Below, piece after piece: positions 10,991 to 51,208 of a DNA stretch of 64,000 bases; position 1 is the stretch's first letter, and the number at the start of each line of letters is the position of its first letter. The notes under the pieces are model-generated. The model saw only the letters and a list, made by a program, of their open reading frames with translations. It was not told the DNA's origin and ran no database searches. This DNA is from Daejeonella sp. (GTDB lineage: Bacteria > Bacteroidota > Bacteroidia > Sphingobacteriales > Sphingobacteriaceae): NCBI RefSeq assembly GCF_030684675.1, contig NZ_JAUXXZ010000043.1, forward strand, positions 1 to 64,000, written 5' to 3'. A program made the position numbers and the translations under genes.

Positions 10991-13900
10991 ATGAAAAAAG
11001 TGTTACAAACGTTTGTAGACCGCCGGTATCTTTTTGCTGTGCTGGCAATGATGTGTTATGGCCAGATAGCCGTGGCACAAAATTCGAGGTATACCCTCAA
11101 GGGTGTAATCACCGATGCCCGAAATAAGGAACCCCTTCCGGGAGCTGTAGTAAAATTAACAGGAACTAATCAGGGAACGTCAACCGATATTAACGGGGCC
11201 TACAACCTGGTCCTGGATGTGAACGAAGGCAGTTACCCTATTCTTATCAGTTATACGGGTTATAAATCCATTACAAGAACCGTCCTATTAAATCAGAGCA
11301 GCACCACATTAAATGTTGAGCTTTCTGAAGACGCGCTTAGCCTGGATGAAGTAGTTGTTACAGGTACTTCGGTTGCAACGAGCAAAAAGCAATTGGGAAA
11401 TGCCATTTCGACAGTATCTGCAAAGGAACTTGAAGGTGGAGCTGCTACCTCGATCGACCAGGCTTTAGCCGGAAAAGTATCGGGTGCTCAGATCTCCCAG
11501 AATTCAGGTAACCCTGCGGGCGGTATCAGTGTGCGCCTCCGTGGTAACAGTACGATATCCGGATCGAGTGATCCGCTGTATATTGTGGATGGTGTTATTG
11601 TGAATAATAGTTCATCAGAGCTTCTTGACCTTGGAGGGTACACTCAAAACCGGCTTGTAGATATTAATCCTGCAGATATCGATCGTATTGAGATCATCAA
11701 GGGAGCAGCAGGAGCTGCAATTTACGGATCCCGGGCAAGTAATGGGGTTGTACAGATCTTTACCAAAAAAGGCAAATCCGGAAAACCTGTGGTTAGTTTC
11801 TCTACTCAGTTTCGTGTTAATGAGTTGAGGAAAAAACTTGAAACGAATGAATATCCATTCCGTTTTACAAACACAACCGCTTCAGATTTAAGCCAGGTGC
11901 CTGTAACCCGTTATGACCTTCAGGATCTTGTTTTCAAGACAGCCTATGGTTCTGAGAGCAATATATCTGTTTCGGGCGGTACCGATAAAACGCAATACTA
12001 TGTTAGTGGCGGTTTTTTAGGTAATCAGGGAATTATTAAGAATACTGATTTCAAAAGGGCTACAACCCGCTTAAGACTGGATCAGAGGTTTAATGATAAG
12101 ATCAAGTTGAGCATGGGTGCCAGTTATTCCTTCAGTGGAAGCGCCGAAATACCGAATGGGGGTATCAGCTCAGCTTACGGTGCTTTAACCGGATTTATTT
12201 TCGGTAATAACTTCATAAACCCGTACCCTAATGCGGCAAGCGGTGTTTACCCTTCTCTTGCCCCAACCGGTTTGTTAAGGACCAATCCGCTGGAAGCAGT
12301 TAACCGTTTTGATTTCAATCAGCAAACAAGTCGTTTTATTGGTGATATTCAATTAAATATTGAACCAATCAGCAACCTGTCAATCAATTATACATTAGGA
12401 TTTGATAATTCTACCCAGCTTGCAACAGCGTATATTCCAATAGGTAACACCACACCTACGAATAATTCCGGTTTCGCCAGAAAGGGTGACAGGCTAAACC
12501 TGCTGCTTAATAATGATGTAAATGTGGCTTATCGTGCTAAACTTGGATCTCAAATTGAATCAACTACATCAGTTGGAGCAACAGCACAGACAGAGCGTGT
12601 TAACTTAAACACAATCACGGGCACCCAGCTTAGTCCTGTTAGTCAGGCGGCATCCAGCGGTGCATCAATCACAACGAGTGATATAAAATCCACAATCAAT
12701 ATTTTAGGATTTTATGCTCAGCAAACTTTTGGGTTCAGAAGTAAGATCTACTTAACAGGAGCGATCAGGAATGACGTTTCTTCTTCATTTGGTGAAGCTA
12801 ACAGATGGCAACTTTATCCTAAAGTAAGTGGTACCTATATTTTATCTGAAGAAGGCTTCTGGAAAAATTCTTCCTTAGCTTCCGCGATCCCAAGCTTAAA
12901 ATTAAGGGCTTCCTATGGCCAGTCTGGTAACTTAACGGCTATTGGCGCTTACGATCGTTTCAGTAATTACGGATCAGTATCTTTGGGTGGCCTTCCCGGT
13001 GTTGTTTCACCAACCCAATATGGAAACCCCGACATTAAGCCGGAACGTCAGACTGAGAAAGAGATCGGCCTGGATGCAAGTTTCCTTAAAAACCGCTTAG
13101 GACTTGAAATTTCCTTTTATGATAAAGCAGTAGAAGACTTGCTTCTGCCTGTAACTTTAAGGCCGTCTTCAGGTTATTCAACCCAGTTTCAGAACATCGG
13201 AAACATGACAAATAAAGGATTTGAGATTTTGCTGAGGGGTGTTCCTGTTCAAAGCAGCAATTTCAAATGGAACTCAACGCTCATATTCTCCAAGGTAAAG
13301 AACAGAGTTACTGATATTCCGGGTGGTGTAGTAACCTTTCCGGGTGGATTTGGACAGGTTGCCGCTGTAAACGGGTATGCATTAGGTGCATTTTATGCTA
13401 CTGCTTTTGCCCGTGACGCTTCAGGGAATCTCATTCTTACTGCCACAGGTTTCCCGCAGACAGAAAAAGTAGGCCGTACTACTGCCGGACAACCTACCGG
13501 ATCAAATAAGCCGCAGGTTATCGGAGATCCAAATCCGGAATGGACCGGATCATTCACGAATGAGTTCTCGATTGGCAAGAACTTTTCATTAAGGATGCAA
13601 TGGGATGCTTCCTATGGTAATGATGTGTTCAACTTCACAAGACGTGTGGGTGACAGGGATATTTATGGGGGCCTTAAGGGCTATGAAAAAGAGCTGAGAG
13701 GAGAAGTTCCAAAAGGAACATCCGCAGCTGTATTTAGTATTATGGAAAACTGGATTGAAGACGGATCTTATCTTAAATTCCGTGAGCTGGCAGCTACCTA
13801 TAATCTAAAATTGAAATTTCTTAATAACAATCCTTTACGTGTAACTGTTTCAGGCAGAAACCTGGCATCGATTGATAAATATAAAGGCTGGGATCCGGAA

Positions 13901-40432: not shown

Positions 40433-41485
40433 ATGGTAGGAGCATCATTGTTTTCAAGTGCCGGTATAGCAGAAACTTACTTAGAAGAAGTAGGAATAGA
40501 TATTGTGGCAGCTAATGAACTAGTTCTAGAGAGAGCAAATTTACACCAAGCATTGTATCCAAAATCTAAAATGATTGCAGGAAATATTTTAGATGAAAAT
40601 ATTTTTAAAACACTTGTCAGAAGCACACCAGAGAAGTTGGATTTTTTGATTGCTTCACCGCCTTGCCAAGGAATGAGTGTTGCAGGAAAAAACAGAAATA
40701 CAGAGCAGATGCTCAATGACGAGAGAAATTACCTTGTTTTTAAAATAATTGATTTCATTAAACTAAAATCCCCCGATTTTATTTTAATTGAAAATGTACC
40801 TACGTTTTTCAAACTTCTTTTGCCATACAATGGTGAGTATTTAAAGGTCGTAGAAATTTTAAATCATTTGTTTGGTGAAGAATATAACATTGAATCCAAT
40901 GTTTATGATGCTGCTCACTTTGGAGTTGCCCAAAGAAGAACAAGAGCTATAATAAAACTATATAGAAAAGGGAAAAAGTGGGGACAGCCTTTAAAATCTG
41001 ACCAAGTCGTAACAGTGGAAGATAAAATAGGTTTTTTGCCAAGCATAGAAGCAGGGCAAAAATCAAAAATCAAATGGCATTATGCTAGAAAGCATGCAGA
41101 CAACCACATTGAATGGATGAAACACACTCCAACAGGTCAAACAGCTTTTGATAATCCAAAATTTTTCCCTGTAAAGCCGAATGGAGAAAGAATTAAAAGC
41201 TATAACACCACATACAGAAGAATTAAATGGCACGAACCTGCACCAACAATTACAATGAGAAATGATGCAATCAGTTCACAATTAAATGTTCACCCAGGCA
41301 GAAAGCTCAAAAATGGTATCTATTCTGATGCAAGGGTTTTGACACCTTTAGAATTAATGATTTTATCATCATTACCTCAAGAATGGAACATTCCAGAAAA
41401 TACGCCTGAATTATTAATTAGAAAATGTATTGGAGAATGTATTCCTCCTTTACTTATCAAAAATATTGTTGCTCAAATAAGTTAA
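40433..41485 (+). CDS. DNA (cytosine-5) methyltransferase
   Basis: LIASPPCQGMSVAGKNR (motif IV PCQ), ILIENVPTFF (ENV), QRRTRAI. Confidence 0.93.
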   Translation: MVGASLFSSAGIAETYLEEVGIDIVAANELVLERANLHQALYPKSKMIAGNILDENIFKTLVRSTPEKLDFLIASPPCQGMSVAGKNRNTEQMLNDERNYLVFKIIDFIKLKSPDFILIENVPTFFKLLLPYNGEYLKVVEILNHLFGEEYNIESNVYDAAHFGVAQRRTRAIIKLYRKGKKWGQPLKSDQVVTVEDKIGFLPSIEAGQKSKIKWHYARKHADNHIEWMKHTPTGQTAFDNPKFFPVKPNGERIKSYNTTYRRIKWHEPAPTITMRNDAISSQLNVHPGRKLKNGIYSDARVLTPLELMILSSLPQEWNIPENTPELLIRKCIGECIPPLLIKNIVAQIS

Positions 41486-41489
41486 TAAA

Positions 41490-42938
41490 ATGACTTTAAG
41501 AATTGATAATAAGAAATGGATTTTATACCGCCACACAAGGGACTTTGAAAAACTTTGTGTTGTTGCAGATTTTTTGAAGTCTTACACAAAAACAGGAATT
41601 TCAAAAGATGAAAAAACACAACTTAATGTGAAGTTGCGGGAATTGGGATTATACAATGAAAGAAATCCTGAATTACCACTTGATGCGATCAATCATAAAA
41701 TCAATCAACTTTCATATTATATGTTTGGCTATCAAGCCAAAATTGATGGACAAGACAGGTTTTTGTTCAGTCCACTTGGTAACTTGTTTTTGAAGCACGT
41801 AGAAGACAAAACAAAAACAGCAAAAATATTTCTTGCAATGCTTTGGGCTGTTCAATATCAACACCCTCATAGCGGAACTGACGATGATTTTCAGCTTTAT
41901 CCATTTCGTTTAATTTACAAACTTCTTTCAGAACCTAAACTTTCCAAAAAACTCTATGCTTTTGAAGTTGCTTATTCTGTTGTTTTTTTGAAAGAAGTAA
42001 ACAAAGCGACTTATAAAGAATTGGTTAATGAATTATTGGAATTGCGAAAACTTTCAGATACAGAACTTGAAAACAAATTTCTAGAAGACCCCCACGCTTT
42101 TGTAAACTCAGCCTACGAATGGGATTACTATGTTTCGAGTTTATTTGAAAGTGCAGGGGTGTTGAATAAAATAGAAGGTAGAGTAATTACCAAGCTACAG
42201 CACGGAAACACAAATACATTCAGAAAAATAACTCGTAACGAAGTTTCAATTCCCGAAAATCTACAAATATTAGTTGAGCAATTGGAAAACGAATATTCTT
42301 TTTTCGATAAACCATTAATGCTTAATGACCCTGAACGTATGAAAATTGACGTTATCAAGGAAATTTACAGTTTTTATCCAAAAACTCTTTTAGTTGAAAT
42401 CGGTGAAGCTGTTGACGATATAAAATATGAATTGCTAAATCTTCCAAAACTCATTGAACAATACGCAAATAATACTGATGGTGCAGAAGCATATCTTTTT
42501 GAAGATGCATTAACAGACGGCTTCAATATGTTTCACAATGTAGAAGCACAAAAAATTGGTGGTGCAGGGAATACCGATATTGAATGTCTGTATATTACAA
42601 AAAAGAAAAAATTCTCAGTTGATGCAAAATCAACAAAAAACAAACTTTCCGGTATAAATGCAGGAAGATTAGAAGGACACAGAGAAAAAATAGGCGGTGC
42701 TTATACAATAGTAGTTACACCAAGATATGTTCCTGCTGTCCTTCAAGATATTCGCACAAGTCCCATTGTAATTATTCGTGCAAACACTTTTTCAGAATAT
42801 CTATACAACTGCATTGATAACAATGTAAGAGAAATAGACTATGCCGATTTTGACAACATTATTTTGAATAATCTAGGGAAAGACATCAGTAAAAACATAT
42901 CAGACTTAACTATTTCAAGGTTCGCATCTAAAAACTAA
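41490..42938 (+). CDS. Putative type II (AlwI-like) restriction endonuclease
   Basis: Lies between two MTases; TDIECLYITKKKKFSVDAKST fits a PD-(D/E)XK-type D...DAK core. Confidence 0.7.
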   Translation: MTLRIDNKKWILYRHTRDFEKLCVVADFLKSYTKTGISKDEKTQLNVKLRELGLYNERNPELPLDAINHKINQLSYYMFGYQAKIDGQDRFLFSPLGNLFLKHVEDKTKTAKIFLAMLWAVQYQHPHSGTDDDFQLYPFRLIYKLLSEPKLSKKLYAFEVAYSVVFLKEVNKATYKELVNELLELRKLSDTELENKFLEDPHAFVNSAYEWDYYVSSLFESAGVLNKIEGRVITKLQHGNTNTFRKITRNEVSIPENLQILVEQLENEYSFFDKPLMLNDPERMKIDVIKEIYSFYPKTLLVEIGEAVDDIKYELLNLPKLIEQYANNTDGAEAYLFEDALTDGFNMFHNVEAQKIGGAGNTDIECLYITKKKKFSVDAKSTKNKLSGINAGRLEGHREKIGGAYTIVVTPRYVPAVLQDIRTSPIVIIRANTFSEYLYNCIDNNVREIDYADFDNIILNNLGKDISKNISDLTISRFASKN

Positions 42939-42945
42939 ACTTGCT

Positions 42946-43710
42946 ATGATTACAATTACAAAAGAAAACAATATGGAATTAATGGCACGGTATCCAGACA
43001 ATTATTTTGACCTTGCAATAGTTGACCCTCCTTACGGTATTTTAAATAAAACCAAACGTGGCGGAGACCACAAATTCAATATGGATGAATACAGTCAGTG
43101 GGATGTAAAACCCAATAACGAGTATTTTAATGAGTTATTTCGTGTTTCACAAAATCAAATTATTTGGGGCGGAAACTACTTCGGACAACTTTGGCCAAGA
43201 AGCGAATACAATAAAGGATTTATTATTTGGGATAAAAATCAACCAGAATCACTTAACAACTTTTCAATGGCTGAAATGGCTTGGTCATCATTGGATAGAC
43301 CTTCCAAAATATTTAGATACAGTGTCAGAAAAAACAGAAATAAAATCCACCCTACACAAAAGCCAGTTGAACTATATGAATGGCTTCTCAAAATGTATGC
43401 TAATCAAGATGATAGAATATTAGACACCCACTTAGGAAGTGGAACTATTGCAATTGCTTGTTACAAAGCAGGATTGGGTTTAACGGCTTGTGAAATTAGT
43501 GAAACATACTATCTAAACGCCTTAGAAAAGATTAAAGAATTAGTTCCAGAGAGTGCAATTCATTCGAATGATAGTGATGCCTTTTCATTGACTTTCCCCG
43601 AACAGAAAACTTCAAAAAATGGGATGCAAATACTATACAAAGAGCACGTTGAGCAACTAAGGTTATTTAAAGAAAGTAGAGCAAAATTCAAAACCACAAG
43701 CCAACGCTAA
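42946..43710 (+). CDS. DNA amino-methyltransferase (N6-adenine or N4-cytosine type)
   Basis: AIVDPPYGI (motif IV DPPY), HPTQKPVELYEWLL, DTHLGSGTIAIAC. Confidence 0.93.
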   Translation: MITITKENNMELMARYPDNYFDLAIVDPPYGILNKTKRGGDHKFNMDEYSQWDVKPNNEYFNELFRVSQNQIIWGGNYFGQLWPRSEYNKGFIIWDKNQPESLNNFSMAEMAWSSLDRPSKIFRYSVRKNRNKIHPTQKPVELYEWLLKMYANQDDRILDTHLGSGTIAIACYKAGLGLTACEISETYYLNALEKIKELVPESAIHSNDSDAFSLTFPEQKTSKNGMQILYKEHVEQLRLFKESRAKFKTTSQR

Positions 43711-43935: not shown

Positions 43936-44592
43936 TTAATCTTCTTCCTGAGTAAATCGTATGTTCTGCTGCAGTGATTTTTTATGATGCAGGTTTATCT
44001 CTTGTTTAAACCGATCAAAATCAAAATCCTTTGCGGTACCGCAATCGAGCATATTAAAATACATGGATGGCTTTATGCTTTCAAAATAATCGCCAATGTT
44101 GCTGCTCCATAAGAGTTGACAATTGCCTTTTATCTGTGGTACTATTTCTGAGATGCCGTCTTGAAACTGTATAGTTCTGATATGGCAGCTTTCGAGGTTC
44201 CCCTGTGGGAAATACAACAATAAATTCCCTGGCTCATTCAATATTTCAGCAGCATAGGCCAAACTTTCTCTCACAGAAAATTTACCGGGCTCGATAGAAA
44301 AGGAACCAAGGTGTCTTAGCCACCATTTCATTTCCATTTGCTTTTTTAAGGACATAATGTAGAGTCGTTTCATTTTGCCCTGTTTAATTAGTACCTGATA
44401 GGCCAGATAGAAACCTAAAAAGCCATCGCCGAAACTGAAGTGATTGATTGATAAAATATAAGAATGGCCTGATTTAATTTCAACAGGCTTGATGATCAGT
44501 TTGTTAAAGTAAAATATCCTGAAAAATTTCGAAAGGCAATACCCGCCGACTTTTAACCAGAATAGCGACAAGGGCTTTGATTTAATGATCAT
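43936..44592 (-). CDS. Lysophospholipid acyltransferase-like (PlsC family) protein
   Basis: SINHFSFGD (HxxxxD) and LYFPQGNLES. Confidence 0.75.
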   Translation of the reverse strand: MIIKSKPLSLFWLKVGGYCLSKFFRIFYFNKLIIKPVEIKSGHSYILSINHFSFGDGFLGFYLAYQVLIKQGKMKRLYIMSLKKQMEMKWWLRHLGSFSIEPGKFSVRESLAYAAEILNEPGNLLLYFPQGNLESCHIRTIQFQDGISEIVPQIKGNCQLLWSSNIGDYFESIKPSMYFNMLDCGTAKDFDFDRFKQEINLHHKKSLQQNIRFTQEED

Positions 44593-45410
44593 GATAGCAA
44601 ATCTCCTAAAACTTTGGCAAAACCTTTATTGATCATTTCATGCCCTTCATCCAAATTCAATATTTCGGCTTTTTTTATCTGTGGCAAAAAAGCTTTGCCA
44701 ATACTTAGGGGATATGATTTATCACGCCTCCCAAAAATAAAAATACTCCGGATAGAGTGATTATTTAATGCATAAATGAGTTTTGCTTTATCAGTTGTTA
44801 AAAACCGTAAATAAGTTAAGCTGGCATACAGATTAAACCGCAACTCATGCGTTTCAATTTCTTTTAAAAGAATTCCATGGCCTTCTGAATCTATAAAACG
44901 AGCTCTTTTGCACATATTTAACAGCTTAACCATCGCATCTTTACTCAAAGATACTTTCTCAATAATCTTATTCCCGAATTTACTCTTGCTAAAAAACCGG
45001 ATAATGTTTCCCGGCTTAATGGATGATGGCGCTGCCACGATATATTCATTAATCATTTCGGGAAGCTCTTCAGCGATTGTCGTTGCATAATGGGTACCCA
45101 TAGAATAACCAATTACCGAAAAACGATTGATGTTATGTGCATTACAAAAGTCGAGAATAAGGCAGGCCAATTCTCTTTTTGTTAATCCCGTTTTTACAGT
45201 TTCCAGACTTTGATCTTTCAGTTTGGTGGCTTTATGAAAAAACAGGTCGAAGCCCCAAAAAGTATATTTATTTCCTAGTTCCGGTTCTAATTCCCGAAAC
45301 TGTTTACCATGCATACCAAATCCATGAAAACACAGCATGTGCTCTTCACCTGTTCCATATTTATAATAATGGAGATCAACAAAATCGGATTTATAAAAAT
45401 GTGAGGTCAA
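44589..45410 (-). CDS. Alpha/beta hydrolase
   Basis: MLCFHGFGMHGKQF, VIGYSMGTHYA nucleophile elbow, LDEGHEMI. Confidence 0.85.
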   Translation of the reverse strand: MTSHFYKSDFVDLHYYKYGTGEEHMLCFHGFGMHGKQFRELEPELGNKYTFWGFDLFFHKATKLKDQSLETVKTGLTKRELACLILDFCNAHNINRFSVIGYSMGTHYATTIAEELPEMINEYIVAAPSSIKPGNIIRFFSKSKFGNKIIEKVSLSKDAMVKLLNMCKRARFIDSEGHGILLKEIETHELRFNLYASLTYLRFLTTDKAKLIYALNNHSIRSIFIFGRRDKSYPLSIGKAFLPQIKKAEILNLDEGHEMINKGFAKVLGDLLS

Positions 45411-45414
45411 TGGA

Positions 45415-45816
45415 TTAAACTATTGCATTAATTAATGCCAAAGCCCAGGCATACTCTGCATCATGTGATATGGTAAGGCTCAGCTCGAATTTTTTAAGAT
45501 TTTCCGGTAATACCACCGTCGGCATTCCTGCTTTTTTGGCCCTACTAATTTCGATTTTCTTCCATCCCAGAGGTGATGAATCCAATTGTTTAATGGCTTT
45601 ATAAACAGCCTCCTTAGCCGCCCAGGTTGATGCATAACGCTGCAAAGAATCAGAAAAACTCTCGCAGTAAGCTATTTCGGCTGGAGTATAGACCTTGTTT
45701 TTGAAGAGATTACTGAGAGAAAGTTTAAAATTTTCTATATGTACCAAATCATTTCCGACAGCAAATGTGCGCTGTGCAGTTATTTGATTTACAGACATTT
45801 CCAACTCATTCTTCAT
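45415..45816 (-). CDS. AcpS-type 4'-phosphopantetheinyl transferase
   Basis: VGNDLVHIENF, STWAAKEAVYKAI, LTISHDAEYAWALAL. Confidence 0.88.
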   Translation of the reverse strand: MKNELEMSVNQITAQRTFAVGNDLVHIENFKLSLSNLFKNKVYTPAEIAYCESFSDSLQRYASTWAAKEAVYKAIKQLDSSPLGWKKIEISRAKKAGMPTVVLPENLKKFELSLTISHDAEYAWALALINAIV

Positions 45817-46621
45817 CTATAACAGGTACTGCCATAATGTTAAATCCACCATCGACAAAATGAATATTGCCACTTACTTTTTTTGAAAGATCAGAGAAAT
45901 AGTAAAGGGCGGCATCGCCTACATCACCGGCATCAATATTTCCTAATGGGGCAAGGTATTTTCCTAATTTACGCATTTTGCGCACACCATTGATCCCACC
46001 TGAAGAAGTAGTCATAACCAGACCGGCAGAAATGGCATTTACCCTTACCTGCTTATTGCGAAAGTAGCTTGCCAGGTAGAGCATTATATTTTCAAGAGCT
46101 GCCTTATTGATAGCCATTCCTCCATATTGTGGAATAACTCTGTTGGCCGCATTATAGGTAAGGGTTAAAATGGATGCATTTTTCTGTAACAAACGTTCAG
46201 CTACCCGTGCGATTCTTAACAGAGAATACGCGCTAATATTAAAAGAATCCATCAGGTCTTCGAAAGGGATATCTATGTAAGCAGGGATAGGTTCTTTACT
46301 GCCAAGAAAGTTCGAACACAATACTTTGGTGTTAGCAAAGGCAACACCATGTAAAATGTAATCGATCGGGCCATGAGTATTGTATACCGAATTCAGAAAG
46401 TTGCTGATCTGAGCTTCATCCCTTACATCAACCTGCATTGCAAGTTTGGTATCAAGGCCTAATTTTTCAAGCAGGTAAAGCACCTCATCACGCGTATCTT
46501 CAACATAGCTTAAGGCAATTTTGCAGCCCGATTGATGCAGTTTTACAGCAATATTATAAGCAATGGATTCTTCATTCCTGACCCCAAAAATGGCTGCAAC
46601 CTTACCTGTATTATTTATCAT
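45806..46621 (-). CDS. FabI-like enoyl-ACP reductase (SDR)
   Basis: KVAAIFGVRNEESIAYNIA, LTLTYNAANRVIPQYGGMAINKAALE, VRVNAISAG. Confidence 0.88.
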   Translation of the reverse strand: MINNTGKVAAIFGVRNEESIAYNIAVKLHQSGCKIALSYVEDTRDEVLYLLEKLGLDTKLAMQVDVRDEAQISNFLNSVYNTHGPIDYILHGVAFANTKVLCSNFLGSKEPIPAYIDIPFEDLMDSFNISAYSLLRIARVAERLLQKNASILTLTYNAANRVIPQYGGMAINKAALENIMLYLASYFRNKQVRVNAISAGLVMTTSSGGINGVRKMRKLGKYLAPLGNIDAGDVGDAALYYFSDLSKKVSGNIHFVDGGFNIMAVPVIDEE

Positions 46622-47966
46622 ATTTTGACAATTTTAAGGCGCTGTTGGTACCCCCAAACCCGTAATTAAGGCAAACAATGCTATCAATGGGTTTTGAAAA
46701 ACTTTCTTGCGGAAGTAAGTGCCTGTAAGCTGCTAAAGGCTTCATCGGGCCTGTCCATTCCGGATCTTTCTGAAACGTTTCCAATTCAGGGTTGAGGTTT
46801 GGAGAATTTAAGCAGGGCAATACCTTCTGCTCTTTAAGCATCAGTAAGGCAGTTATGAATTCCACCGAACCGGCACCTCCCAGCATGTGTCCAAATTGGG
46901 ATTTTGGAGCAGATATATGATAGCCTTCTTCACCCAATGCATCAACCACACTTAACAATTCAATAGCATCACCTGATGGGGTAGATGTGCCATGCACTTT
47001 TACTACATCGGGTTTTTCATCAGAACCGGCAAGTACTCCTTTCCATAACCTTTGCTGTCCGGCAAATGATGGATAGAACATATCTCCGTCGCCGTCTGAA
47101 TTGTTAAAATATTCGTCAATCACCCCTAAGATATCAGCACCACGGGATACCGCCTGCTCATATTCTTCAAGGGCTACTATACCTGCACCAAATGAGCATA
47201 CAAACCCGTTTCTGGCCATATCAAATGGGCGCGAGCTTTCTTCAGGACTAAAACCCCGGCTTAAGACCATCATTCCATCAAAACCAATAAAGGTTTCAAG
47301 CGATGTGCTTTCTACCCCGCCGGTGATTGCACGGTCTTGAATCCCGTATTTGATTAGTCGATAAGCGTAGCCAATATTACCGAGACCGGTTGCGCAGGCA
47401 GAACTAATGGTTTCGCAGACACCTTTGTTTTTTATCAGAACCGAGACATTGGCTGCTTCGCGGTAGGTCATGGTTCGGTCGACAGTATGACCACCTGAAT
47501 GCCGTGTTTTTCTGCCACTGACGTAAAAATTATGCCAACCGGTTCTTAGAATCAAATTAGCCGAACCGCCAGAGCCGATCACCACACCAGTTCGCTCTGA
47601 CTGGACCAGATCCTTTGACCAGCCAGCCATTTTTATGGCATCCTGTGTTGCAATCATTGTCCAGATGCTGCCTACGTCTGAAGTAGCCAGGTTCGCATCC
47701 GGGATCCGGTTCAATTTATCCACATAGGTTTCCGGATAGATACCTTCAAAAGGATCCCAAATTACCTCCAGATCCATCTCTGGCTCGGTGATAAAACCAG
47801 CTACGGTAGACCTGACCTGCTTCTCATAAGCCATGGTATCATCGAATGTGCGGATCAGGCTCTTGTTAGCAAATAACTTACTGCTAAATTCAGAAAGGTT
47901 CTTGCAGGTGGGGAAAGCTCCCCCCATACCCACTACTGCCACCTTTCTGCCAGGTATATTAACCAC
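46611..47966 (-). CDS. Beta-ketoacyl-ACP synthase (FabF-like) with intact Cys-His-His
   Basis: ISSACATGLGNIGYA, VKVHGTSTPSGDAIEL, KSQFGHMLGGAGSVEF. Confidence 0.93.
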   Translation of the reverse strand: MVNIPGRKVAVVGMGGAFPTCKNLSEFSSKLFANKSLIRTFDDTMAYEKQVRSTVAGFITEPEMDLEVIWDPFEGIYPETYVDKLNRIPDANLATSDVGSIWTMIATQDAIKMAGWSKDLVQSERTGVVIGSGGSANLILRTGWHNFYVSGRKTRHSGGHTVDRTMTYREAANVSVLIKNKGVCETISSACATGLGNIGYAYRLIKYGIQDRAITGGVESTSLETFIGFDGMMVLSRGFSPEESSRPFDMARNGFVCSFGAGIVALEEYEQAVSRGADILGVIDEYFNNSDGDGDMFYPSFAGQQRLWKGVLAGSDEKPDVVKVHGTSTPSGDAIELLSVVDALGEEGYHISAPKSQFGHMLGGAGSVEFITALLMLKEQKVLPCLNSPNLNPELETFQKDPEWTGPMKPLAAYRHLLPQESFSKPIDSIVCLNYGFGGTNSALKLSKYDK

Positions 47967-48219
47967 GTGCTTTTACTTTTAAAATCAGATCAACAACATC
48001 CTTGACAGTTGAGCCTAAATCATCAATATCATCGTCTTCAAATTCAATATCAAACTTTTGCTCGACTTTTGCGACGATAGCGATCATTTGAGATGATGGT
48101 ACATTCATATCAGCTAAAAAATCTGTTTCTTCTGTTACACCTACTAATTTTTCGGGCTCTATCATTCTCACAGTTTTAAGTACCTCTATCAAACCGTCAA
48201 TAATTTCTTGTCTTTCCAT
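47959..48219 (-). CDS. Acyl carrier protein with atypical P-S-S attachment motif
   Basis: NVPSSQMIAIVAKVEQKFDIEFEDDDI aligns with the ACP [23 protein letters not shown] region. Confidence 0.85.
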   Translation of the reverse strand: MERQEIIDGLIEVLKTVRMIEPEKLVGVTEETDFLADMNVPSSQMIAIVAKVEQKFDIEFEDDDIDDLGSTVKDVVDLILKVKARG

Positions 48220-48225
48220 TAAAAT

Positions 48226-48819
48226 TTACTTTTTGTTTATTGCTCTAAAATATTCTATGTCAATTTCCCGTCCTGTTATATCATAGTAATCAGAAATAAG
48301 TTTAAAATCGGGTGAAAGATCGTATTTGAGTAAACACTCTTCGTTAAAATCTTTAAAATACTCGTCAAGGTCTAATCCCTGGGGGCATCTGTAAATCCTC
48401 CCATCGCAAACCATTTGCTTAAATTTATAAAATGTTATTTTCCCCAGAATAACATAAGTATCGCCCTTTTCAAGTGCGGCCATAAAGTTCACATTACCAA
48501 CGCTGATAAAGCTTGGGACAGATTTTTCTTTCAAATCCTCGGGGGCACAATTATGGTTCTGACAAATCAAAAACATAGATAAAGAAGCAGCGGTAGCCTG
48601 AACAAAGGACTCTATCTGGTCAACTCCTCTGAAAATGTCAAAATGGTCTTCTACATCATAATCAGTAGGGGTATAGCTTGCTACAACACCTATTTTAGGC
48701 GAGTGCCAGTGATATTTATCTACAAGCAGCTTTTTAGGACCGTAGGCAACAAGTATTTCTTTCGGATGTATTGAACACAGGCTTTCTACAAGTACGCCTT
48801 TATCATAATATCCCACCAT
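48226..48819 (-). CDS. Hotdog-fold (FabA/FabZ-like) dehydratase candidate
   Basis: FRGVDQIESFVQATAASLSMFL and position between FabG and ACP. Confidence 0.6.
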   Translation of the reverse strand: MVGYYDKGVLVESLCSIHPKEILVAYGPKKLLVDKYHWHSPKIGVVASYTPTDYDVEDHFDIFRGVDQIESFVQATAASLSMFLICQNHNCAPEDLKEKSVPSFISVGNVNFMAALEKGDTYVILGKITFYKFKQMVCDGRIYRCPQGLDLDEYFKDFNEECLLKYDLSPDFKLISDYYDITGREIDIEYFRAINKK

Positions 48820-49525
48820 TTATATTTATGTTAGTTCCGTTAATGTATGATGCCTTATCTGACATCAGAAAAGCAACCACTTCTGCAACCTCATTCACAT
48901 TACCGAAACGGTTTGCAGGAATGGCTTTTAAATATTCTTCTCTGAATTTTTCAGGTACTGAATCTGTCATCTCTGTTTCAATAAAACCCGGGGCTATGCT
49001 TAATATCCTGATGGAGTGTTCTTCGCTTAAAGCCGAAACTTCGCGGGCCAGTGATTTTGACAGTGCTGCCAAACCTGCTTTGGTTGCCGAATAAACTGCC
49101 TGAAAAGCATTTCCGGTTTCACCAACGCATGAACTTACATTGATAATTACCCCGCGTTTATTTAAAAGGAATTGTTTTATCACAGCTTTACAGATCATAA
49201 TTGGGGCTTTCAGATTTACCTGGAGCAGCTTATCTATTTCATTTTCTGGCTGATAAATCAGGGATTTATCAAATGTAATGCCCGCATTATTGATTACCCC
49301 ATACAGGGTATCTCCATGCTCTTTTTTTAGACGTTTACAAAATTCAGTGAGTTCGCCTGGATCGCTGAGATCAGCACAAAGCAGATGATGTTTAGGATCA
49401 AAATTGGTAAAACTCTCCTTACGCGTGGCGTGTAAGATCAATGTATACTCTTTCGATAAGGCGTTTGATATTGCCAGGCCCAAACCCCTGCTTGCTCCGG
49501 TTATCAATATCTTTTGTTCCGGCAT
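48803..49525 (-). CDS. FabG-like 3-oxoacyl-ACP reductase (SDR)
   Basis: ILITGASRGLGLAISNAL, YSATKAGLAALSKSLARE, INGTNININGG. Confidence 0.92.
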   Translation of the reverse strand: MPEQKILITGASRGLGLAISNALSKEYTLILHATRKESFTNFDPKHHLLCADLSDPGELTEFCKRLKKEHGDTLYGVINNAGITFDKSLIYQPENEIDKLLQVNLKAPIMICKAVIKQFLLNKRGVIINVSSCVGETGNAFQAVYSATKAGLAALSKSLAREVSALSEEHSIRILSIAPGFIETEMTDSVPEKFREEYLKAIPANRFGNVNEVAEVVAFLMSDKASYINGTNININGGIL

Positions 49526-49657: not shown

Positions 49658-51208
49658 TTATTCACTAAGCCTTCTTAAGCCTTCCTTTGCATGAGTGTCA
49701 ATACCAATTTGATATTCATGATTTTTCATCCCTAGGGCCATATTATAATACTCAGCTGCTTTTTTATTGTCTTTTATGTATTCGTAAATATTACCCGATT
49801 TTAATGCTGAATATGCTGCAAAATAATAGCTTTGATTTTTTCCCAAATTAATTGTACGTTGATAATATAGCAAGGCATCATCAAAATCGTTCATCATATC
49901 ATAGGTTCGCCCAAAACGGTAGTAGAGTTCTAGTTTATCCCTCTGGCTTTTTAAATCATTAACCTGAATTGATTTTAATTGAGCCAGTGCATTATTATAA
50001 CTGCCGCCATCAAAATAGAGTCTTGCTTTCAATAAAATTAGATTAGGCTTAACGTCATTTGCTTCTTTCAAGGCCTGCTTATCCTTTTCATTAATTACCG
50101 AACCTTTGGTTCTCACCAATGTTAAATAATAATTGTATTGCGAAATATTATTTCTTATCAGATAATAAAATGCAAGTCTTAGATACGTATCCTTTATATA
50201 ATTCGTACTCAGGGTCTCATTTGCAAATTTGCTGAGGTATAGGTTCGCATCCGAATCCATGCTGCAAAGTTTAGCATTGCCCATCAGATAGTTCATAAGT
50301 GGCAGGTCGGCGTACTGGCTGCCCTTTGGTGCGGCTTCAATAAATTTAATTGCGGCTTCGGCATGCCCGGTTCTAAAGGCAGTGTACCCTTGTAAATAAG
50401 CTTTAAGGAGGCTTTTATCATTCATGCTATTCAAGAGTGGTGTCACGTAGCTGTAACTGTTCCTGCCCTGAATCACATCTACATGGGTAAAACAGAGCAA
50501 AAACACAACTTCATCATTGTAATAGCTAAACTTACTATTCGCAATCTGCAGTCTGAATCTTTCCAATTGCTTATTCCCTTTTGTAATATTTCCCTCAATA
50601 CCCAAAACACTGGCTATTCCTTTCATATTGGTTGGGATGGCTCCAAAGATCACTTCTATCAACCCCAGACTTTTTTGATTGGGCAAAAAGTCCTTAAACT
50701 TTTCATTATTCTCAGTTAACAGGTCTTTCGCCTTTTTAAAATCATAGGTGGAAGACATGTATTCCCCGAATTTAGCTTTAATCATTCCAGATTGAAGGTA
50801 AATCTCAGCCTGGGCAAACAGATAATAGGGTGAATTTTTATCATTTTTTTTGATTGCATCTATCCTGCCTGATTTCCTGTTCTTAAACTTTTCAAATTCA
50901 ATTTTGTTTTCCGAAGTAAGCAGGAATAAATAATCAATGTAGTTTTCAAGCAAGACCGGAATGCCATTTTGAGGATTATTAATTTTCTCTTCCCGGATGT
51001 ATTTCCGTGCATCATTAAACCGCAAATCAAATATGGCCTGATATGCTGCTGTTGAATTGGAATTGAATACAAAGTTTGCTTTTGCAGCTTGATGGATACC
51101 AAAGAAAAAAAGTAGGGTTATAAAATATTTATAATGCATTCCGGGATGATTCGCTTTAAGAATATAAGTATTGATTAATCTTGATTTTGGCTTTTGAAGA
51201 CCCTGCAA
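49658..51208 (-). CDS. Tetratricopeptide-repeat protein
   Basis: Repeated TPR-like helices, e.g. KLELYYRFGRTYDMMNDFDDALLYYQRTINLG. Confidence 0.8.
   Translation of the reverse strand: MQGLQKPKSRLINTYILKANHPGMHYKYFITLLFFFGIHQAAKANFVFNSNSTAAYQAIFDLRFNDARKYIREEKINNPQNGIPVLLENYIDYLFLLTSENKIEFEKFKNRKSGRIDAIKKNDKNSPYYLFAQAEIYLQSGMIKAKFGEYMSSTYDFKKAKDLLTENNEKFKDFLPNQKSLGLIEVIFGAIPTNMKGIASVLGIEGNITKGNKQLERFRLQIANSKFSYYNDEVVFLLCFTHVDVIQGRNSYSYVTPLLNSMNDKSLLKAYLQGYTAFRTGHAEAAIKFIEAAPKGSQYADLPLMNYLMGNAKLCSMDSDANLYLSKFANETLSTNYIKDTYLRLAFYYLIRNNISQYNYYLTLVRTKGSVINEKDKQALKEANDVKPNLILLKARLYFDGGSYNNALAQLKSIQVNDLKSQRDKLELYYRFGRTYDMMNDFDDALLYYQRTINLGKNQSYYFAAYSALKSGNIYEYIKDNKKAAEYYNMALGMKNHEYQIGIDTHAKEGLRRLSE

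Follow-up and report, generated by a model that had tools for sequence, protein, structure and literature searches.

The window analyzed here is a 64,000-nucleotide stretch of contig NZ_JAUXXZ010000043.1 from Daejeonella sp., a member of the Sphingobacteriaceae. Its minus strand carries, at 43936–49525, eight open reading frames (ORFs) that resemble a type II fatty acid synthesis (FAS) cluster, with a ketoreductase (KR) gene first, at the 49525 end, and a PlsC-like acyltransferase gene last (Table 1). The successive intergenic distances are −17, +6, −8, −11, −11, +4, and −4 bp; because every gap is an overlap or no longer than 6 bp, the ORFs constitute a single tightly packed unit. Pfam and NCBIfam searches recovered a FabG-type short-chain dehydrogenase/reductase (SDR), an acyl carrier protein (ACP), a ketosynthase (KS), a FabI-type SDR, an ACPS protein, an alpha/beta hydrolase (ABH), and, weakly, PlsC. 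ORFs, gaps, and domains together bear out the eight close or overlapping genes of a first-pass annotation of this DNA. Its term "self-contained" was too strong, and it missed a linked ninth gene (c8) directly upstream that encodes a tetratricopeptide repeat (TPR)-like protein. A sigma-70 promoter scan gave a yield not usefully above expectation, and a search upstream of the operon detected no complete Bacteroidota-type promoter (TTG-N17-23-TAnnTTTG).

Table 1. The eight-gene unit, in order from its first gene, and the linked gene c8
Gene	Position	Strand	Assignment	Basis
KR	48803–49525	−	FabG-type 3-oxoacyl-ACP reductase, 240 aa	TIGR01830, E 1.7e-62; first gene in all complete loci
HD	48226–48819	−	Predicted FabZ-fold 3-hydroxyacyl-ACP dehydratase, 197 aa	AlphaFold2 and Foldseek; His59, Glu70
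ACP	47959–48219	−	Private ACP, 86 aa	PF00550, NF002147
KS	46611–47966	−	Ketosynthase, 451 aa	Catalytic residues; PDB profile match FabB
ENR	45806–46621	−	FabI-type enoyl-ACP reductase, 271 aa	NCBIfam FabI models, E 1e-56
PPT	45415–45816	−	AcpS-type phosphopantetheinyl transferase, 133 aa	PF01648, E 9e-14
ABH	44589–45410	−	Alpha/beta hydrolase, 273 aa, TTG start	PF00561
PlsC	43936–44592	−	PlsC-like acyltransferase, 218 aa	PF01553, 23.4 bits (cut-off 23)
c8	49658–51208	−	N-terminal hydrophobic helix and all-helical TPR-like solenoid, predicted exported	AlphaFold2

The unit encodes a full reductive cycle, as had been claimed: KR, HD, and a FabI-type enoyl-ACP reductase (ENR) whose Tyr156, Tyr166, and Lys173 are invariant in an alignment of 23 sequences. 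HD has no family match in Pfam or NCBIfam, and a sequence search against the PDB returned nothing significant, although a fold search did match. Its AlphaFold2 model (predicted local distance difference test score, pLDDT, 90.8) finds FabZ structures as its best Foldseek match (3b7j, E 1e-8), which agrees with the earlier label of hotdog-like. His59 and Glu70 are invariant among 23 aligned sequences and align by eye with the catalytic pair of FabZ; by the same inspection, the active-site loop is ~3 residues shorter than in FabZ. As modeled, HD is thus predicted to have the hotdog fold of the FabZ/FabA dehydratase type with its catalytic His and Glu.

The Cys-His-His triad of KS, described earlier as intact, is present together with Lys in all 33 family members aligned. 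The best PDB profile match is FabB (1e-60, versus 1e-48 for FabF), and the pocket site occupied by Ile108 in both Escherichia coli FabF and the FabF of this genome is Gly (25), Ser (7), or Ala (1) in the KS family; E. coli FabB has Gly at the equivalent site. KS also has an N-terminal insertion of ~20 residues relative to FabB and FabF. It shares 27% identity with the housekeeping FabF of its own genome and ~34% with the FabB-like KS of a Paracoccus plasmid (CP038202). In the private ACP, the serine sits in an NVPSS motif where DSL is usual, and Ser42-Ser43 is conserved. The triad of ABH (Ser103/Asp230/His257) is invariant in 19 aligned sequences, and the protein is likely a thioesterase or acyl hydrolase. 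The PlsC motif His51-x4-Asp56 is likewise invariant (20 sequences); a sequence search of PlsC against the PDB found no relative.

The cluster is secondary, as the first-pass annotation had proposed. The same genome encodes acpP-fabF-rnc on another contig (C61), a housekeeping FabI candidate (C5:6186) that shares 34% identity with the ENR of the cluster, and a frame of the size of an LpxC-FabZ fusion (contig C12), which is the only PF07977 protein of the genome; the PF07977 search therefore found no FabA. These separate genes, and the absence of the cluster from most genomes of the family, rule it out as the primary FAS. Neither FabD nor FabH is encoded within the cluster, again as previously noted.

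The phosphopantetheinyl transferase (PPTase) also sets the unit apart. PPT scores above the cut-off of TIGR00556 and below that of TIGR00516 (40.5 of 59.8 bits), and is by sequence a divergent member of the AcpS-type PPTases (about 120–135 residues, ACPS domain). The genome encodes four ACPS-family proteins, namely the 133-residue cluster protein and three larger ones with frames of about 224–252 residues. Among cluster-free Daejeonella genomes, five have exactly one ACPS-family PPTase (216–228 residues) and a sixth has two (220 and 226 residues). In all 14 cluster-bearing Daejeonella genomes an AcpS-sized frame (open frames of 131–181 residues) is located at the cluster, and within the genus PPTases of this size occur only there. 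This pattern indicates that housekeeping activation in Daejeonella needs no AcpS-sized enzyme and that the cluster supplies its own, which upholds the earlier description of the PPTase as dedicated. The cluster PPTase may well prefer the cluster ACP.

A homology scan of 84,980 genomes yielded 71 loci, 69 of them in Sphingobacteriaceae (Daejeonella, Mucilaginibacter, Pedobacter, and others). The order KR-HD-ACP-KS-ENR-PPT-ABH-PlsC is complete in 56 of the 71, and most departures come from contig ends or a lost ABH. Because 56 loci share all eight genes in one strict order, the grouping is beyond chance. Within the family the distribution is patchy, with the HD gene in 43 of 201 genomes and 7 of 25 genera, and in a phylum-wide sample of 395 genomes the HD gene was found only within Sphingobacteriaceae. 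Two Flavobacteriia outgroups, Zobellia barbeyronii (L169) and a Flavobacteriales metagenome-assembled genome (MAG; L170), carry KR-FabA-HD-ACP-KS-ENR-PPT. Such FabA-containing clusters, which had been missed, tie the module to fabA-fabB-fabI chemistry. We infer that a fabA-fabB-fabI set, once equipped with its own ACP and PPTase, was either the ancestor of the module or a parallel to it; in the Sphingobacteriaceae branch, FabA would then have been lost and ABH and PlsC acquired.

Individual loci show further variation. In Pedobacter segetis, P. psychrophilus, and P. arcticus (L043, L049, L051), the cluster is interrupted between PPT and ABH by a pair of small genes that look by eye like a RES-type toxin and an Xre/MbcA-like antitoxin. 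In P. insulae and P. planticolens (L161, L164), the cluster sits between apparent rpsJ and rplC genes, inside the S10 ribosomal protein region. A Sphingobacteriales MAG (L133) retains a remnant, HD-ACP-KS only, followed by an unrelated 819-residue gene, in an apparent decay of the unit.

Lateral movement of the unit, also missed in the first pass, emerges from comparison with the primary pathway. The housekeeping FabF shares 94% identity with its Daejeonella lutea counterpart and 78% with the FabF of Mucilaginibacter sp. OK283, whereas KS is 69% identical to its D. lutea counterpart and 78% identical to that of Mucilaginibacter OK283. The corresponding values (D. lutea/OK283) are 70/78% for ENR, 51/73% for ABH, 49/65% for PPT, and 53/67% for c8; every measured gene of the nine-gene unit (ACP was not among them) is closer to Mucilaginibacter OK283, the reverse of FabF. 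Gene-to-gene distances are strongly correlated within the unit. Given this congruence among its genes and their incongruence with primary FabF, the most likely history is a transfer of the whole cluster from one genus to another in a single block. The G+C content of the cluster equals that of the window (39.9%), so composition carries no trace of the transfer. A plasmid origin was rejected, the best match to KS in a plasmid collection being only 34% identical.

Gene c8 adjoins the cluster in 44 of the 71 loci in two arrangements, upstream in Daejeonella and Mucilaginibacter OK283 and convergent downstream elsewhere. Its true start in the window is probably the ATG at 51136, and its AlphaFold2 model is all helical (pLDDT 90.6). 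Distances among c8 sequences are correlated with the distances measured for the cluster genes (r 0.86–0.89). In cluster-free genomes, a c8 relative is found at another locus, behind two conserved genes that by eye are Nif3-like and zinc-ribbon-like, and in the c8 tree the form of cluster-bearing lineages is separate from that of cluster-free genomes. Judged from these sequences, c8 travels with the cluster without being exclusive to it, so any role assigned to it is tentative.

At the other end of the unit, three plus-strand genes (40433–43710) lie between PlsC and an msrA-like gene: a C5-cytosine methyltransferase, a 482-residue protein that has no Pfam match and is perhaps a restriction partner, and an N6/N4 methyltransferase. 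The segment has a G+C content of 33.4%, compared with 39.9% for the window, and looks like a recently inserted restriction-modification island. In five close relatives (L054–L056, L075, L076) the msrA-like gene directly follows PlsC.

Several known systems share parts of this organization. The rhizobial cluster acpXL-fabZXL-fabF2XL-fabF1XL-adhXL-lpxXL serves the very-long-chain fatty acid of lipid A (PMC11901934) and, like the Daejeonella cluster, exists alongside the primary FAS and brings together a dedicated ACP, a FabZ-type dehydratase, a KS for elongation, a reductase, and an acyltransferase. The six-gene set, however, has two KSs, an alcohol dehydrogenase-type reductase, and an LpxXL/MsbB-type transferase, and it has no ketoreductase, PPTase, or hydrolase gene, all of which are present in Daejeonella. 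By analogy, the cluster would work like the AcpXL-LpxXL system but is not a member of it because the two KSs and the reductase and transferase types that help define that system are not found here. Aryl polyene and flexirubin clusters share KR, dehydratase, ACP, KS, thioesterase, and lysophospholipid acyltransferase with the unit (PMC8253772, PMC8041823). Aryl polyene clusters differ in having a pair of KS and chain-length factor (CLF) and outer-membrane transport genes, and their gene sets contain no ENR (PMC8253772, PMC8041823); the E. coli cluster has two ACPs and no PPTase of its own. The Daejeonella unit has one KS, one ACP, and both ENR and PPTase. Its single KS, with no CLF partner in the unit, and its FabI-type ENR rule out an aryl polyene or flexirubin identity, a distinction that the first-pass annotation had drawn correctly.

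The alphaproteobacterial fabA-fabB-fabI operon, exemplified by the Paracoccus plasmid, also has a FabB-like KS followed by a FabI-type ENR, and in Paracoccus fabA, fabB, the ENR gene, and an alpha/beta hydrolase gene are consecutive. FabA, present in the two outgroup clusters, is absent from the Daejeonella cluster, which adds a private ACP, PPTase, KR, FabZ-fold protein, and PlsC. The cluster proteins also gave below-cut-off NCBIfam matches that were used in a comparison with mycobacterial FAS-II. That system (KasA, AcpM, MabA, HadABC, InhA) is likewise a secondary module for chain elongation that has a dedicated ACP and reduces completely, but its locus is not homologous, its dehydratases are heterodimeric, and its product is mycolate. 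Secondary FAS II branches with private carriers make a few special lipids, among them the very-long-chain acyl groups of rhizobial lipid A, mycolates, and aryl polyenes. Because the cluster lacks defining features of the rhizobial, aryl polyene, and FabA operon systems, we file it as a variant of the secondary FAS II branch with private ACP. In keeping with the earlier statement that this is not a described pathway, we found no description of the cluster in the open-access literature searched, although one in a subscription journal is possible; a comparative ladderane paper mentions neither Bacteroidetes nor the Bacteroidota genera searched.

The best explanation of the cluster is a dedicated module for saturated-acyl synthesis or elongation with a hydrolase and a PlsC-type transferase. 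The AcpS-type PPTase would convert the private ACP to holo-ACP, and a putative housekeeping malonyl transferase (FabD) would load it with malonate, the absence of FabD and FabH from the unit implying malonyl-ACP from primary metabolism. The FabB-like KS could extend an acyl group from the primary pathway or a primer made by decarboxylating malonyl-ACP. KR, the FabZ-fold dehydratase, and the FabI-type ENR would then fully reduce every extension to give a saturated chain on the private ACP, saturation being expected because ENR is retained. The PlsC-type enzyme would move the finished chain to a lipid acceptor, and the gene content as a whole suggests a saturated product placed on lipid. The hydrolase may act as an editing or releasing thioesterase, and c8, the linked TPR protein predicted to be exported, probably has the lipid so formed as its target in the envelope.

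Several observations weigh against this account. ABH was not detected beside the cluster in five loci (L132, L147, L161, L162, L164) and is thus not universal. Nor is ENR, which is cleanly missing from P. planticolens (L164), where PPT begins at 12165, right after the end of KS at 12162. In both outgroups PlsC is absent and PPT is not followed by ABH; attachment to lipid would thus not be ancestral. The assignment of PlsC itself is based on a borderline Pfam score and a motif, and KS forms a deep clade of its own on a long branch, with grouping with FabB supported only weakly (46/88).

Some of these variants invite a different proposal, that the module makes unsaturated or polyunsaturated chains through FabA/FabB-like chemistry and derives from a fabA-fabB-fabI set with a private ACP. 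The FabA genes of the outgroups, a KS that is nearest to FabB by profile and whose pocket residue (the Ile108/Gly107 position) is Gly in most members, the gene order on the Paracoccus plasmid, and the P. planticolens copy without ENR all fit, but the genome has no FabA isomerase, its LpxC-FabZ being the sole PF07977 protein, and ENR is otherwise retained with invariant catalytic residues. We consider this proposal unlikely. Somewhat less doubtful, although still improbable, is a module that, in the manner of rhizobial acpXL-lpxXL, takes acyl chains from the primary pathway and extends them to very long chains destined for lipid A or some other lipid of the outer membrane. The logic of dedicated ACP, FabZ, KS, reductase, and acyltransferase is shared (PMC11901934), the absence of FabH and FabD suggests uptake of primed chains, and a predicted exported TPR gene is linked; against this stand one KS instead of two, a FabI-type instead of an alcohol dehydrogenase-type reductase, and a PlsC-type instead of an LpxXL/MsbB-type transferase, and chain length is not something that sequence can reveal.

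Two further proposals fare worse. Divergence of KS (27% to FabF) and ENR (34%) and lateral transfer could point to a back-up FAS that bypasses inhibitors of FabF or FabI, yet a resistant KS or ENR alone would suffice, which would make the private ACP, PPTase, hydrolase, and acyltransferase superfluous, and the unit contains neither FabH nor FabD; we regard this as very unlikely. A triclosan-resistome paper mentions neither a gene cluster nor Bacteroidetes. Supply of an acyl starter to a nonribosomal peptide synthetase-polyketide synthase (NRPS-PKS), to make a lipopeptide, was considered because an NRPS-PKS gene lies directly past the linked TPR gene in three Mucilaginibacter loci (L039, L042, L046) and has an orthologue in the window's genome (contig C33). 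The NRPS-PKS occurs, however, in 6 of the 43 family genomes that carry the cluster and in 36 of the 158 that lack it, counts that include several MAGs and are confounded by phylogeny; this lack of association largely refutes the linkage and leaves the proposal only the slimmest chance. The orthologue on C33 (2818–18809) belongs to a conserved megasynthase with adenylation, peptidyl carrier protein, KS, acyltransferase, ACP, and aminotransferase parts (A-PCP-KS-AT-ACP-aminotransferase) and NRPS partners. Of the 201 family genomes, 42 contain this megasynthase, and polysaccharide-export-like genes come next in Mucilaginibacter (L183, L185). The window's own contig (C57) carries, beyond the window at about 91990–129306, a large NRPS/PKS locus that comprises a PPTase and four frames, of 2850, 2101, 2583, and 2675 residues.

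Overall, we think it probable, with moderate confidence, that the cluster is a secondary type II fatty-acid module that moves laterally and serves a single specialized acyl product. Because the same eight ordered genes are patchy in the family and have in all likelihood moved between genera, that product is probably a special lipid and not ordinary membrane fat. A more specific version is tentative: the nine genes may be a laterally moving envelope-lipid system of Sphingobacteriaceae in which private ACP and AcpS drive a FabB-like FAS branch to an undescribed saturated acyl lipid, whose placement is aided by the PlsC-type transferase and by an exported TPR protein devoted to this task. The ACP–PPTase pair is readily distinguished from the housekeeping pair within Daejeonella, and its orthogonality is therefore directly testable. 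The P. planticolens copy without ENR and the Flavobacteriia copies with FabA are natural variants that predict different products. If this reading is correct, a conserved, transferable, and fully reducing FAS branch in Sphingobacteriaceae would be a sign that common environmental bacteria contain an undiscovered lipid.

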